NCBI GenBank assembly: GCA_018608765.1
Contig: JABAYY010000078.1
Coordinates: 1-36,961, forward strand
Direction: 5' to 3'
Length of the DNA: 36,961 bases
DNA from: Flavobacteriaceae bacterium
GTDB taxonomy: Bacteria > Bacteroidota > Bacteroidia > Flavobacteriales > Flavobacteriaceae
The notes under the pieces are model-generated. The model searched no databases. It was not told where the DNA came from and saw only the letters and a program-made list of their open reading frames with translations. Every line of letters begins with the position of its first letter. The first letter of the stretch is position 1. A program made the position numbers and the translations under genes. Shown piece after piece: positions 9,477-36,961 of this stretch.

Positions 9477-9551
9477 TGGGTCATACTGGATTCGAACCAG
9501 TGACTTCTACCCTGTCAAGGTAACACTCTGAACCAACTGAGTTAATGACCC
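9477..9551 (-). tRNA. tRNA-Val (anticodon GAC)
   Basis: The 75-nt cloverleaf is complete on the minus strand. Acceptor arms are GGGTCAT and ATGACCC, and the D arm is ACTC/GAGT with an AGTTGGTTCA loop. The anticodon stem TTACC/GGTAG carries loop TTGACAG, and the T arm is ACTGG-TTCGAAT-CCAGT. The anticodon GAC reads GUC/GUU valine codons, and the discriminator base is A. No CCA is encoded, so the CCA end must be added enzymatically. The gene is convergent with murF. Confidence 0.95.
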
Positions 9552-24053: not shown

Positions 24054-25100
24054 ATGAAAAAAATAATTATTTTCTGTGCACTTCTTGTTGGAGTGAACGT
24101 ATCCAGTGCTCAAGACATTGGAGCTGTCGTACTTGGATCGGATGATGCCAGTACTTTAATACAAAACTACCTTAGTCCCTCAATGAAAGGACTTATGAGT
24201 AGTATGAACGGTGGGTGGTATTCCACCGCTAAATCGCATAAAAAACTTGGGTTTGATATTACTTTTGGACTCAATGCAGCTTTTACTCCGGGTAAAGACA
24301 AGGTATTTGAGTTTATAGCCGATGACTATAGTTTTTTATCAGTTGCAAACGGAGGAACAAGCATTCCAACCGTTTTAGGGAAAGACAGTTCGAACACTAC
24401 GTTTAATGTTTCAATCCCTTATCATGGGAATAACTATAAGACAGGATCTTTTGAATTGCCTGGTGGAATTGCAAAAGATTTACCTGTCAATGCCATTCCA
24501 ACCCCTTTTGTTCAAGTGGGTCTTGGATTGCCTTTTAAAACAACGATCAAATTAAGGTATGTTCCCAAAACAGGTTTTGCCTCAAAAGTAGACGCCAATT
24601 TAATTGGAGTGGGTCTTCAGCACGATTTAACTCAGTATCTTGGACTCGTAGGAAAGCTTCCGTTTTCCGTTTCCGTTTTAGGGGCTTATACCACTTCAAC
24701 AATCGACTACACAATTCAAACAGGAGATTTATCAGATCAAGTTTCTGTGACCAATGGGGGAGCTGAATTCAAATTAAATATTTGGACTGTTCAAGCATTG
24801 GGGTCGTTAGATTTTCAAATTGTGACTCTTTATGGAGGTATAGGTTACAATGGTGGAACGTCAACATTTAAAGTCAAAGGAGATTATAGTCTAACGTATG
24901 AGCTTGAATCTGCTGATGGAACCAATCAAGGTTCTGTGGTCGAATCTATTTCAGATCCAATTAGTTTAAAATTCAAATCCACGGGGGCGCGTGCTACCTT
25001 GGGTGCACGTTTAAACCTTCCTTTTGTTAAGATTTTTGCCGATTATACCATGCAAGAATACAGTACTGCATCCCTAGGCGTTGCAATTAGTTTTAGATAA
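24054..25100 (+). CDS. Outer-membrane beta-barrel-like protein (DUF6588-like)
   Basis: The 348-residue protein has a signal peptide (residues 1-20, ending VSSAQ). The mature part has alternating hydrophobic/polar strands typical of a small barrel and ends in SLGVAISFR, where the terminal aromatic plus charge pattern fits outer membrane insertion. Conserved-looking pieces are NYLSPSMKGLMSSMNGGWY near the N-terminus, PTPFVQVGLGLPFKTTIKLRY, GVGLQHDLTQYL and TLYGGIGYNGG. It resembles the Bacteroidota family catalogued as DUF6588, recalled from memory and not searched. No function is known. It sits between gyrB and mdh with 24- and 25-bp gaps and is probably co-transcribed with them. Confidence 0.75.
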   Translation: MKKIIIFCALLVGVNVSSAQDIGAVVLGSDDASTLIQNYLSPSMKGLMSSMNGGWYSTAKSHKKLGFDITFGLNAAFTPGKDKVFEFIADDYSFLSVANGGTSIPTVLGKDSSNTTFNVSIPYHGNNYKTGSFELPGGIAKDLPVNAIPTPFVQVGLGLPFKTTIKLRYVPKTGFASKVDANLIGVGLQHDLTQYLGLVGKLPFSVSVLGAYTTSTIDYTIQTGDLSDQVSVTNGGAEFKLNIWTVQALGSLDFQIVTLYGGIGYNGGTSTFKVKGDYSLTYELESADGTNQGSVVESISDPISLKFKSTGARATLGARLNLPFVKIFADYTMQEYSTASLGVAISFR

Positions 25101-33106: not shown

Positions 33107-33589
33107 ATGAAACCACATTTTTTATACATATTGTTTTTAGTGCTTTTTAGCTACAATTGCAATTCTCAAAACACAAACCGTCGTTATTTGCCTCTTACTG
33201 TTATTCAGTATGACGCTAATGTATCAACTCCATTTTCGGCAAATGAAATGTTGCAGTTAACGGAGGTTTACGGAGCATCTCTAGATAAAGAAATTTTGAG
33301 CCGCCCCAACCGAGTTCTTTCGATGAAAAATTTGCTTCGGAATCGAATTGTGATTGAAAATAGACCAGATTCTAAAGATCAAAAACAATGTCCTTTGTTA
33401 TCGGAGGTTCCACTTTTTGATGCCTTTGTTCCAACCCTTCAAAGAGATTTAGGTTTTAATCCTCAAAAATTTAATCCACTCAAGTACTCCTTTTCATTTT
33501 ACAGTCGAGGCGAACATATGTATCGTGTCGATGGTACAGATTACTTCATTTTAGTCAAATCACAACACTCTAAAACAGAAAAGAAATGA
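33107..33589 (+). CDS. Uncharacterised secreted protein coupled to the large repeat protein
   Basis: The 160-residue product starts at MKPHFLYILFLVLFSYN, a short signal peptide ending near CNSQ. The Cys in SYNCNS is a weak lipobox candidate. The mature part contains ANEMLQLTEVYGASLDKEIL, then a basic stretch (RPNRVLSMKNLLRNRIVI) and a beta-like C-terminus. I recognise no family. The frame is also open from 33062, but the upstream 15 residues would spoil the signal peptide and follow directly on an 18-bp palindrome. Its stop codon overlaps the start of the large repeat-protein gene as ATGA. This indicates one transcript and coupled translation, so a role linked to that protein (export, folding or attachment) is an inference worth testing. 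Confidence 0.7.
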   Translation: MKPHFLYILFLVLFSYNCNSQNTNRRYLPLTVIQYDANVSTPFSANEMLQLTEVYGASLDKEILSRPNRVLSMKNLLRNRIVIENRPDSKDQKQCPLLSEVPLFDAFVPTLQRDLGFNPQKFNPLKYSFSFYSRGEHMYRVDGTDYFILVKSQHSKTEKK

Positions 33590-36500
33590 GAAAATTAGTT
33601 TTACTTTTTAGCATACTCTTTTCAGTTTCATTAACAGCACAAGTGTTTGTCATTGAAGATGGAGTTACAATCAATTCATGTTCAGGAACTTTTGTAGATA
33701 CAGGTGGAGCGACTGGGCCTTATTCAGGAAATGAATCTATTACCTATGTAATTTGTCCAGAAACTGCAGGGCAATTGGTTCAGTTAGATTTTACTGCATT
33801 TGCCACGCAAGCTGGAGCAGATGTTATGGCAATTTATAACGCAGATGATGCACTTGACGCAACGACTTTATTTGGAAATTTTTCAGGAACAACAGCGGCA
33901 AGTAGCCCTGGTTTTGTTTCTGCTACACAGGACAATGTTTCAGGTTGTATCACCATTGTGTTTACGTCTAGTGGCGGTGTTAATGATACTGGTTGGGTCG
34001 CAGATATTTCATGTTTTGAGCCCTGTCAGACGATTGTTTCTGTGTTGGATTCTTCAAGTCCGGAATCCAATGATGATGGTTACATACAAGTGTGTCCAAA
34101 TGAAGAAATTACCTTAACAGGAAGTGGTCAGTTTAGTACTAGCGGCGATGGAGCAACCTATGAATGGGATCTTGGGGATGGTACAACTCAAGCCGGTCAA
34201 ACGGCGGTATTTTCTTATGATACCCCAGGCGTATATCTAGTAAATCTAGACATTACTGACACCAATACCAGTGTTGATGAAGGGGGCTGTAAAAACACAA
34301 ATTTAATAAACCAAGTGATTCAAGTGGCGTTGCCCACAGATTTCACTGGAACAGCAGCGACAGATTCAACCATTTGTTTTGGTGATTCCACGACTATTAA
34401 TGGTGTCGCAAATGTAGTTCCGTTTCTAAATGAGTGTACGCCTCCAGAAAGTGAAGTTACCTTTTTACCGGATGGAAGTGGTGCCGTTTATGAAACAGAA
34501 ATTATTGTTGATTGTTTTGAATCGGATCAAACTTTAGACGATATTAATCAATTGATTGAAATTTGTTTAGTCATGGAGCACTCCTATTTAGGAGATTTAG
34601 ATATTGAAATAATTTCACCTACCGGTGAACTTGTGCGTCTTCATGATCAAGGAGGGGGGTCGGCAAACTTAGGAATCCCTTGGGCTACAGCCGCAGTTGA
34701 TGGTCAAAGTAATATATTAACTCCAGGTGTCGGTTTTCAATATTGCTTCATTCCAGGAAATGCCTTCCCGACTTTAGTTGGTGGGATTCAGCCTGATGAA
34801 ATGTTTGTCAGTGGAGATGGCCCAGCTACATATTCAGATTCATTTGTGCCAGAAGGAACCTATTCTTCCGTAAACTCTCTAAATGGTCTTATTGGCTCTT
34901 CCCTGAACGGAAGTTGGACCATTCGAATTACAGATAATATTGGTCAAGATAATGGTTATATATTTTCATGGGTTTTAAATTTTGACCCTACAATCCAACC
35001 TCCAGATCTTTCTTTTACGCCAACAATGGTTTCTGAATCTTGGGACGATGATAGTAGTATAATCAATACAGAGGGTAATACAATTACAGTTCAGCCATCT
35101 GCAGAAGGAGTATTTTGCTACACATACCGTGCGTTGGATGATTTTGGATGTGAATATTCTGAGGAAGTGTGTATTGAAGTTTCACCAGAATTAGTGTATG
35201 CCGCACCCGATGATTTATTTGTTTGTAATACTGGAACAGCGTTTGGAGTTTTTGATCTGACTGAAAATGATGCTATAATTTACGCGCCCACTACAAACCA
35301 AGGCGATTTTGTGTTAACATATCATGAAACTCAAGCAAATGCTGATGCAGATTCTAACCCAATTTCAGCGGCTGATGTTGTTGCTTTTTCGGGGACAGAC
35401 GGTCAAATTATTTATGCGCGGTTTGAATACAAAACATCTGGATGTTATGAGACCGTTTCGTTTACATTGAACCTTCTTGATCAACCTTTGATTTTTTTAC
35501 CAACCGATATGGTGGTTTGTGACGACATCAGTAATGATGGTTCGGAATCGTTTGATTTGTCAAGTCAAACACTCGATATATTAGGAGCTCAACTCCCCGA
35601 AAATTATTCCGTAAGTTATTATATAAGTTTTGAGGATGCAGATGCAGGAACTAATAATTTGTCCAGTCCATATGATAATATTTCTTCCCCAGAACCTATA
35701 TATGTTCGTGTGGAAGCAAATGCGGGTGCTGGATGTTACATTGCAGACGTAAACCCTGTATTCAATTTGGTCGTGAATCACAAAGCTAATGCTTCGGGAC
35801 TTACAAACCTTCAAACTTGCGATGACGATTTAGATGGCTTCATGACTTTTGATTTAGAGCAGCAAACAACACTCGTTTTAGGGGACCAAATAGATTCAGA
35901 CTTTACAGTTACCTATCACGAAACGGAAGTCGATGCAGATTCAGGAAGCAATCCATTAACTAGTCCGTTCACAAACACCATTGCAAATCAACAAACTATT
36001 TTCACTCGAGTCGAAGAGATTGGTTTAGAGGCGTGTTATGAAACAACTCAATTTGACGTCATTGTCAATCCACTGCCAAGCACCGTTACCATGACAGCTT
36101 TGTCTATATGTGATGACGACGCAGATGGACTCGGATTATTTACATTAACCACAAAGGATACAGAAGCCTTAAACGGACAAACAGGAATCGCTGTAAGCTA
36201 TCATGAAACCCAAGGCGATGCAGACACAAACACCTCACCTTTAGCCAGTCCTTACACCAATACCATCGGAAACAGTCAAATAATAATCATACGTTTAGAA
36301 AACACCACCACCAACTGTTTTAGCACCATGCCTTTGGAGCTACGCGTCAACCCACTGCCGATAGCCAATGCTATAGGCACTCAAACTATATGTGATGATG
36401 ACTATGATGGTCTAGCGACATTTGATTTTACAGGGATCGACTTAATAGTTGCAGGCACTCAGTTAGAAATGGTTGTAAGCTATCACGAAACGCAAGGCGA

Positions 36501-36961
36501 TGCAGACACCAATTCATCCCCCGTTACAAGTCCTTACACGAGCATCATTCCAGATGAGCAAACACTTTTCATACGTTTAGAAAACACCACCACCGGCTGT
36601 TTTGACACCACCACATTAGAACTACTAGTTGACCCCCTTCCAGTAGTTCCCACCATTACAGACTATGAATTATGTGACGACACCAATGCAGGTGATTTAC
36701 AAGAACTCTTTGATTTAAGTACCAAGGACACAGAAATCATCAACGGTCAAAATGTAAGTGTCACTTACTACGAAACCGAAACCGATGCGCTCAATAATAT
36801 AAATGAACTGACAGGACTGTACCAAAACACCTCCAGTCCACAAACCCTCCATGTAGCCCTTACAGATTTAACCACAGGCTGTCGCATCACAGGGAGTTTT
36901 ACACTTATTGTCAATCCACTGCCAAGCACCGTTACCATGACAGCTTTGTCTATATGTGATG
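33586..36961 (+). CDS. Large multidomain repeat-containing surface protein (5' part, runs off right edge)
   Basis: The frame is open from ATG 33586 to the window end (1125 codons, no stop). A signal peptide (residues 1-19, ending LTAQ) precedes a CUB-like region (~30-145, CSGTFVDTGGATGPYSGNES). A PKD domain (~170-245, YEWDLGDGTTQAGQTAVFSY) follows, then a proprotein-convertase P-domain-like region (~310-466, LDIEIISPTGELVRL and LNGSWTIRITDNIGQDNGY). An Ig-like stretch leads into tandem repeats whose first cysteines are at residues 547, 645, 745, 842, 936, 1030 and 1124. Each repeat reads roughly CDDDxDGxxxFDL, YHETxxDADxxxxPLxSPYTN, (F/I)xRLExxxxxCF and VxPLP. This architecture is common in flavobacterial proteins exported by the T9SS, usually with a type B C-terminal sorting domain. 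That domain would be beyond the window, so the T9SS assignment is an inference. It is probably an adhesin-like cell-surface protein. Confidence 0.88.
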   Translation, partial: MRKLVLLFSILFSVSLTAQVFVIEDGVTINSCSGTFVDTGGATGPYSGNESITYVICPETAGQLVQLDFTAFATQAGADVMAIYNADDALDATTLFGNFSGTTAASSPGFVSATQDNVSGCITIVFTSSGGVNDTGWVADISCFEPCQTIVSVLDSSSPESNDDGYIQVCPNEEITLTGSGQFSTSGDGATYEWDLGDGTTQAGQTAVFSYDTPGVYLVNLDITDTNTSVDEGGCKNTNLINQVIQVALPTDFTGTAATDSTICFGDSTTINGVANVVPFLNECTPPESEVTFLPDGSGAVYETEIIVDCFESDQTLDDINQLIEICLVMEHSYLGDLDIEIISPTGELVRLHDQGGGSANLGIPWATAAVDGQSNILTPGVGFQYCFIPGNAFPTLVGGIQPDEMFVSGDGPATYSDSFVPEGTYSSVNSLNGLIGSSLNGSWTIRITDNIGQDNGYIFSWVLNFDPTIQPPDLSFTPTMVSESWDDDSSIINTEGNTITVQPSAEGVFCYTYRALDDFGCEYSEEVCIEVSPELVYAAPDDLFVCNTGTAFGVFDLTENDAIIYAPTTNQGDFVLTYHETQANADADSNPISAADVVAFSGTDGQIIYARFEYKTSGCYETVSFTLNLLDQPLIFLPTDMVVCDDISNDGSESFDLSSQTLDILGAQLPENYSVSYYISFEDADAGTNNLSSPYDNISSPEPIYVRVEANAGAGCYIADVNPVFNLVVNHKANASGLTNLQTCDDDLDGFMTFDLEQQTTLVLGDQIDSDFTVTYHETEVDADSGSNPLTSPFTNTIANQQTIFTRVEEIGLEACYETTQFDVIVNPLPSTVTMTALSICDDDADGLGLFTLTTKDTEALNGQTGIAVSYHETQGDADTNTSPLASPYTNTIGNSQIIIIRLENTTTNCFSTMPLELRVNPLPIANAIGTQTICDDDYDGLATFDFTGIDLIVAGTQLEMVVSYHETQGDADTNSSPVTSPYTSIIPDEQTLFIRLENTTTGCFDTTTLELLVDPLPVVPTITDYELCDDTNAGDLQELFDLSTKDTEIINGQNVSVTYYETETDALNNINELTGLYQNTSSPQTLHVALTDLTTGCRITGSFTLIVNPLPSTVTMTALSICD
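36061..36115 (+). repeat. First copy of a 55-bp exact duplication
   Basis: This segment, encoding IVNPLPSTVTMTALSICD at a repeat-unit junction, is identical base for base to 36907-36961. The offset is 846 bp, which is three 282-bp units. Confidence 0.95.
36907..36961 (+). repeat. Second copy of the 55-bp exact duplication (truncated by window end)
   Basis: It is identical to 36061-36115 up to the last base of the window, so the real length of the identity is at least 55 bp. The left boundary of identity is sharp, since the preceding codons differ (TQFDV in one, SFTL in the other). Confidence 0.95.

Follow-up and report, generated by a model that had tools for sequence, protein, structure and literature searches.

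The gene at the right-hand end of the window

The stretch of DNA analysed here (the window) comprises 36,961 nucleotides from a bacterium of the family Flavobacteriaceae and corresponds to bases 1-36961 of the 42,655-bp scaffold C9, which belongs to a genome bin of 2.07 Mb in 105 contigs (87.18% complete, 6.64% contaminated). Its right-hand end holds the left part of a long open reading frame (33586..36960, plus strand, as are all features of this gene; 1125 amino acids (aa) within the window) for a secreted repeat protein. Directly after the window end the scaffold contains a run of 100 N (36962-37061). The frame resumes in an unchanged codon phase past this gap and terminates beyond the window, at scaffold position 39934. 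Past the gap, in the same phase, lies a TIGR04131 sorting domain for type B export by the type IX secretion system (T9SS) (116 bits, cut-off 35, E 6.1e-34). The best explanation of the locus, which we hold with considerable confidence, is that a cassette of three immunoglobulin-like (Ig-like) units, L3-L4-L5, is present in this T9SS type B stalk protein as an in-frame tandem repeat that was collapsed in the assembly.

As judged by eye from the translation, the protein starts with a probable signal peptide, a hydrophobic N-terminus ending in TAQ (33586..33642). It is followed by a PKD domain (residues 158-229, 34057..34272; Pfam PKD_4, 51.9 bits, cut-off 27) and by a proprotein convertase P-domain, of which the better of two stretches covers residues 328-358 (34567..34659; Pfam P_proprotein, 41.9 bits, cut-off 21). 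Beyond this head the protein contains about twelve kinds of Ig-like unit of ~94 aa each. Unit typing placed five of them to the left of the gap, L1 (35476..35775), L2 (35776..36066), L3 (36067..36348), L4 (36349..36630) and L5 (36631..36912), the last three being of 94 aa each, and seven, R1-R7, to the right; a weaker unit-like stretch lies ahead of L1. The cassette itself spans 36061..36906 (846 bp, three units), and is read as collapsed from graph reasoning and from resolved copies in relatives.

Exact repeats of 55 bases on both sides of the gap

The original prediction had pointed to an exact 55-bp identity between repeat junctions three units apart, with adjacent units only partly similar at the same place, and both points proved correct. 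Positions 36061-36115 and 36907-36961 agree at 55/55 bases with an offset of 846 = 3 x 282, and the same 55 bases are 61.8% identical to the site 282 bp on and 52.7% identical to that 564 bp on (62% and 53% when rounded). As the longest direct repeat elsewhere in the window (1-33585) is only 21 bp, the 55-bp identity is not a matter of chance. The right edge of the match, in turn, is not a biological edge; the window simply stops at the 100-N gap. Units L3 and L4 have a 26-bp exact match of their own (36287-36312 = 36569-36594, offset 282).

A second exact 55-mer pair spans the gap: 36869-36923 recurs at 37062-37116, the first 55 bases past it. Both pairs are bounded by the gap on one side and by a mismatch at base 56 on the other. 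We call the first 55-mer V1 (36061..36115, where a loop is entered, and 36907..36961, the final 55 bases ahead of the gap) and the second V2 (36869..36923, the loop exit). A search of the bin with 36061-36961 returned, besides the query, only 37062-37116 (100%) and 35913-36004 (72%), both on the same scaffold.

The left border of the cassette is a 17-bp linker with codons for IVNPLP (36061..36077), of which exact copies exist on the scaffold only at 36907 and 37100. As the IVNPLP linker is conserved between several units, the 55-bp identity might be thought to represent a local junction kept alike by selection on the protein, without any block duplication. This is hardly credible: the closest other site in the gene has 2 mismatches to the 17-bp linker, the 55-base identity takes in synonymous sites, both matches end at 55, at a gap, and the whole block is duplicated in relatives (see below).

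Assembly-graph reading of the gap

In terms of an assembly graph, V1 is reached from two sides (L2 and L5) and V2 is left to two sides (V1 and R1), while the stretch from V1 to V2 comprises 863 bases with a period of 846. Given a single genome, the stretch has to be traversed two times or more, since V1 has two entries and V2 two exits. With 55-base words as nodes, the path consistent with the left piece is L2, V1, cassette, V2, V1, cassette, V2, R1. The 55-mer pairs are characteristic of an 846-bp loop in an assembly graph with k=55, and the figure of 55 bp is most likely the word length of the assembler, not the extent of the duplication. Word lengths of 55 and 127 are usual in SPAdes (55 being a usual top k) and 100 N is a usual gap filler, which may hint at the assembler used. 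Because the 55-mers that flank it recur, the 100-N run is far likelier to be an assembly gap than withheld sequence.

We propose the following course of events. The source genome would carry the cassette at least twice in tandem, and a short-read de Bruijn assembler with a word length of 55 would have folded the copies into a single loop, so that the contig broke off 55 bases into the following copy, with 100 N as a bridge. With two cassettes the protein would, by arithmetic, comprise 2333 aa, with 282 aa added by each further cassette. A hidden tandem duplication can thus be read from nothing more than a 55-bp identity at the edge of a contig. The case is also a warning that genes of such kind can come out shortened or broken in short-read genomes.

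The same pattern was found at a second 100-N gap in the bin, in another long repeat gene on contig C83, whose C-terminal part is 55% identical to that of the window gene. There, too, the terminal 55-mers recur and the 56-mers do not, which gives a recurring 55-mer at 4/4 flanks of the two 100-N gaps seen, with no recurring 56-base word. The loop at C83 measures 594 bp, about two units. This gap, at positions 2650-2749 of locus L059 (G000:C83:3000-14000), implies a collapsed 594-bp tandem repeat. In a genome of another genus (G085) two contig ends (loci L107 and L108) have exactly 127 bases in common, consistent with this reasoning and a greater word length. We also considered that contig ends in the bin might generally overlap by 55 bases; this failed for the 42 ends of 21 contigs, and within the sample the 55-mers are at the two N gaps.

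Cassette number in related genomes

Sixty genomes, the source included, were searched with the protein and 38 matched at E 1e-10. Fourteen stretches were examined, 12 from relatives and 2 representing paralogues in the source genome, and the units were typed in nine relatives; three fragments (L054, L055 and L057) and the two source-genome paralogues (L058 and L059) were left untyped. The comparison of copy numbers leaves out G008, which is without L1-L3, and G012, whose units are just 30-44% like those of the window.

Cassette number alters protein length between species, the copies amounting to 0, 1, at least 2, or 3. Three cassettes are present in the congener G003, and at least two both in the source genome and in G017, whose contig ends there. 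One cassette each was found in the congeners G002, G007 and G009 and in G025, a member of another genus, and none in the congener G004, in which the end of L2 is joined straight to R1 at the same linker, IV-(D/N)PLP. The three copies of G003 are resolved on a 368,858-bp contig, at 846-bp spacing and in one frame of 2593 aa; its full-length cassette matches start at 344300, 345146 and 345992, and the copies differ from one another at 2, 2 and 4 of 846 bases. In G017 the full-length matches start at 24378 and 25224 and differ at 2/846 bases, and the contig ends at the same junction. The three-unit block duplication put forward in the original prediction is thus supported both by the graph logic, given one genome, and by the three resolved copies of G003.

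A search within the genus with the cassette as query gave matches in 14 of 18 genomes at E 1e-20, the source included, and the cassettes of G002, G003, G009, G017 and G007 have 60-86% protein identity to that of the source genome. In the eight proteins compared, changes are limited to whole cassettes, and the order of units outside the cassette is constant as far as the sequence runs; the middle cassette unit of G025 was labelled closest to R2. Identities to the N-terminal/C-terminal parts of the source protein are 58%/83% in G003, 85%/89% in G002, 83%/83% in G009 and 79%/76% in G004, and the gene of G003 (C7:341894-349669) looks mosaic in its sequence.

A tree built from the remainder of the protein, in which G017 covers only 17% of the columns, requires four or more changes between the states 0, 1 and several (counted by hand). 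The multiple copies in the source genome, G003 and G017 represent either separate gains or an old array kept alike by recombination. G002, of the same genus as the source genome and its sister on the tree, has a single copy, which may itself be a collapsed assembly.

It is conceivable, though less likely than not, that the duplication is real and that cassette number drifts neutrally, with no role for the length of a stalk. The changes lie between species and could represent tolerated slippage, and such drift would leave the structural side of the best explanation untouched. On the other hand, none of the listed protein matches has an internal stop, and the restriction of the changes to whole cassettes also speaks against this idea.

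Border linkers and the proposed mechanism

The linkers ahead of L3 and R1 agree at 17/18 bases in the source genome, G002 and G003, and this pair is the best of 55 linker pairs in each of the three; the next-best pair agrees at 14 bases in G002 and at 16 in the source genome and G003. Concerted evolution of the border linkers was considered on this basis, and was convincing for G002 only.

We propose that L3-L4-L5 (282 aa, 846 bp) is a unit of length change, duplicated or deleted as a whole and in frame. The first step would most likely be an unequal recombination at the near-identical 17-18-bp border linkers, and later steps might take place by unequal recombination between identical cassettes. 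The resulting stalk would consist of 94-aa Ig-like domains lined up in a set order, three of them being added with each cassette copy, and its length is likely to set how far the N-terminal head with the PKD domain and the P-domain stands off the cell. The stalk role is putative, as is any benefit that it might bring. In a T9SS surface protein of marine flavobacteria, length would then change in steps of one discrete three-domain cassette.

Paralogues, contig ends and strain mixture

Contigs often end near the cassette in other genera as well. Twenty cassette loci (L100-L119) were drawn from 16 of the 19 genomes that matched, and in 14 of these 20 loci the cassette match lies within 761 bp of a contig end; two of the 14 are on contigs of more than 1 Mb. 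Such family-wide contig ends were tried as a sign of tandem copies and the idea was dropped, as paralogues or a shared contig end were found in 4/4 genomes tested (G322, G196, G175 and G085). Near-identical stretches occur in paralogue pairs of G322 (L103/L104; 94.8% over 3418 bp) and G196 (L110/L111; 97.3% over 3765 bp), and in G175 (L114/L115) a 700-bp stretch that reaches the two contig ends has 96.7% identity. The pair from G102 and G317 gave no match to each other.

These paralogues and contig ends could favour an explanation without any tandem copy, in which a second, unbinned gene has parts in common with the window gene and the common 55-mers cause the break. We consider this very improbable. 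The left piece runs from L5 straight into L3 (36907-36961), an order of which the typed relatives offer no example other than the tandem arrays in G003 and G017. Moreover, V1 and V2 were found nowhere in the bin beyond the window scaffold, in a search that covered the binned contigs, and the paralogue regions of the source genome on C83 and C66 gave no blastn match to the window locus at E 1e-20.

A mixture of strains, in which cells with one cassette coexist with cells that have at least two and both contribute to the graph loop, could also be envisaged. The fragmentation of the bin into 105 contigs and its 6.64% contamination would agree with a mixture, as would the difference in copy number between close species (at least two in the source genome versus one in its sister G002). 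However, a mixture is superfluous for explaining the graph, and even so some cells would need at least two copies. We therefore regard it as rather unlikely, and in any case as a variant that retains the tandem duplication.

Several observations weigh against the collapsed tandem cassette or restrict what can be drawn from it. The copy number in the source genome is only a lower bound, at least two, and the loop edge could stem from a different strain in a bin of this completeness and contamination. Among 42 terminal 300-base stretches (21 of the 105 contigs of the bin) there is no exact match of 25 bases or more. In the other genera tested, it is near-identical dispersed paralogues, not tandem copies, that accompany the contig ends. 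Finally, the linker result is clear only in G002, its lead being one base in the source genome and G003, and the L3/R1 pair is not outstanding in G009 (12/18), G007 (13/18) and G025 (15/18, tied).

Sequence and predicted fold of the units

Adjacent units are 27.1-55.3% identical at the protein level, and the identity across the L5-L3 junction is 42.4%. The most alike neighbours are L3 and L4 (55.3% in protein, 64.9% in DNA). Tandem Repeats Finder did not report the array, which is explained by its longest period of 500 and by adjacent units being too different. When 53 three-unit stretches, taken from the window and 25 other loci, were aligned, the only invariant residues were cysteines C15 and C84 of each unit in the triplet, plus a single alanine; among 63 single units C84 is invariant and C15 is present in at least 90%. 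Judging from this conservation, a disulphide bond may be formed between C15 and C84 of each unit.

AlphaFold2 modelled the cassette confidently, with a predicted local distance difference test score (pLDDT) of 96.6 and a predicted template modelling score of 0.80, and the single unit L3 with a mean pLDDT of 96.2. For the cassette, the Foldseek list was headed by chains of the grappling-hook protein GhpA, with RET, cadherin and Ig chains behind them; the single unit had no Foldseek match at E 0.001 or below. With a structural aligner, GhpA of Aureispira (PDB 9fly, 9flx and others) accounted for the seven top-ranking rows obtained with the single unit (Z 5.9-6.8, root-mean-square deviation 2.6-2.7, 75-77 of 94 residues), values under the trustworthy level of the tool (Z below 8), and row 8, an unrelated protein, also reached Z 5.9. 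Rib domains were matched at Z 5.0-5.5, likewise below that level. No sequence match between GhpA and the unit was found.

Searches of Pfam and NCBIfam yielded no family over the repeat units of the window protein, and Pfam assigned 0 families to the window cassette. Other members of the alignment gave scattered weak Pfam matches, the best being Ig_7 (E 0.00059; 3/53 members). One sequence search of the PDB gave no match and another a single weak one (E 0.48).

Comparison with known surface proteins

The stalk length of Periscope Proteins, e.g. SasG, Rib/Alpha C and the SHIRT domains of Sgo_0707, varies via tandem domains that are nearly identical, an exception to the rule by which adjacent domains of large proteins are usually less than 50% identical (PMC8201768, PMC9704523). 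In these proteins the array is a monomeric rod at whose tip an N-terminal functional domain is displayed; the corresponding observation here is the confident model of three units. By analogy with them, the window protein probably works as a variable-length stalk. Like the Periscope Proteins, it is a single-chain surface protein of tandem folded domains whose length varies by whole repeats that are near-identical in DNA, with homologous recombination as the proposed cause of the length change; the number of repeats varies between homologues, in the present case between species (0, 1, at least 2, 3). Unlike in the Periscope Proteins, the repeat consists of three different Ig-like domains with identity only at the third neighbour, and export is by T9SS type B. 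Because the repeat is of this composite kind, neighbours are only 27-55% identical, and the 50% rule is nearly obeyed despite 846 identical bases. The protein is not classed as a Periscope Protein, as its neighbouring domains, taken singly, lack the high identity that defines that class.

A repeat period of more than one domain is also known from SasG/Aap, in which the G5-E repeat has a period of two domains. In the window protein the period is three domains of one fold family, and sorting and anchoring are unrelated to those of SasG/Aap, whose stalk has a G5-E-G5 structure (PMC9704523).

A possible meaning of this arrangement, which we offer tentatively and regard as improbable rather than probable, is that the three-domain cassette is a periscope that avoids misfolding. 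Length change needs identical DNA repeats, yet identical neighbouring domains are said to misfold together; with the cassette, no neighbours would exceed 55% identity (42% for the junction newly made), and recombination would still be given 846 identical bases. If this were true, copy number should vary within populations, and other T9SS stalk genes should have periods of two or three units on the same grounds; the C83 loop (594 bp, roughly two units) would be a second case. If the cassette also varies within species, variable-length surface stalks would extend to T9SS cargo of Bacteroidota, and there would be a direct test of whether dissimilar neighbours protect multidomain proteins from misfolding. 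Among the titles and abstract openings listed by literature searches, there was nothing on the protein or on a three-domain cassette of such kind.

Substrates of T9SS type B are described as known or predicted adhesins, and in Flavobacterium johnsoniae a PorP/SprF gene is reported next door in 9 of 12 cases, with orphans also occurring (PMC12618676). The window protein resembles type B cargo such as SprB of this species in its TIGR04131 sorting domain, and differs from it in that the window cassette has no Pfam family. It also differs from the usual type B cargo in the lack of an adjoining PorP/SprF gene, a usual but not a defining companion; the next gene has no match in Pfam or NCBIfam. Three PorP_SprF genes were found in the bin, on C96, C66 and C34. 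A paralogue of the window gene (G000:C66:10091-14520) is 61% identical over the head region, and a match to the C-terminal part (51%) lies at 14595-15479 of C66, on the same contig as one of the PorP/SprF genes. Elsewhere in the window, a transfer RNA gene on the minus strand (9477-9551) is the sole Rfam match at gathering score.

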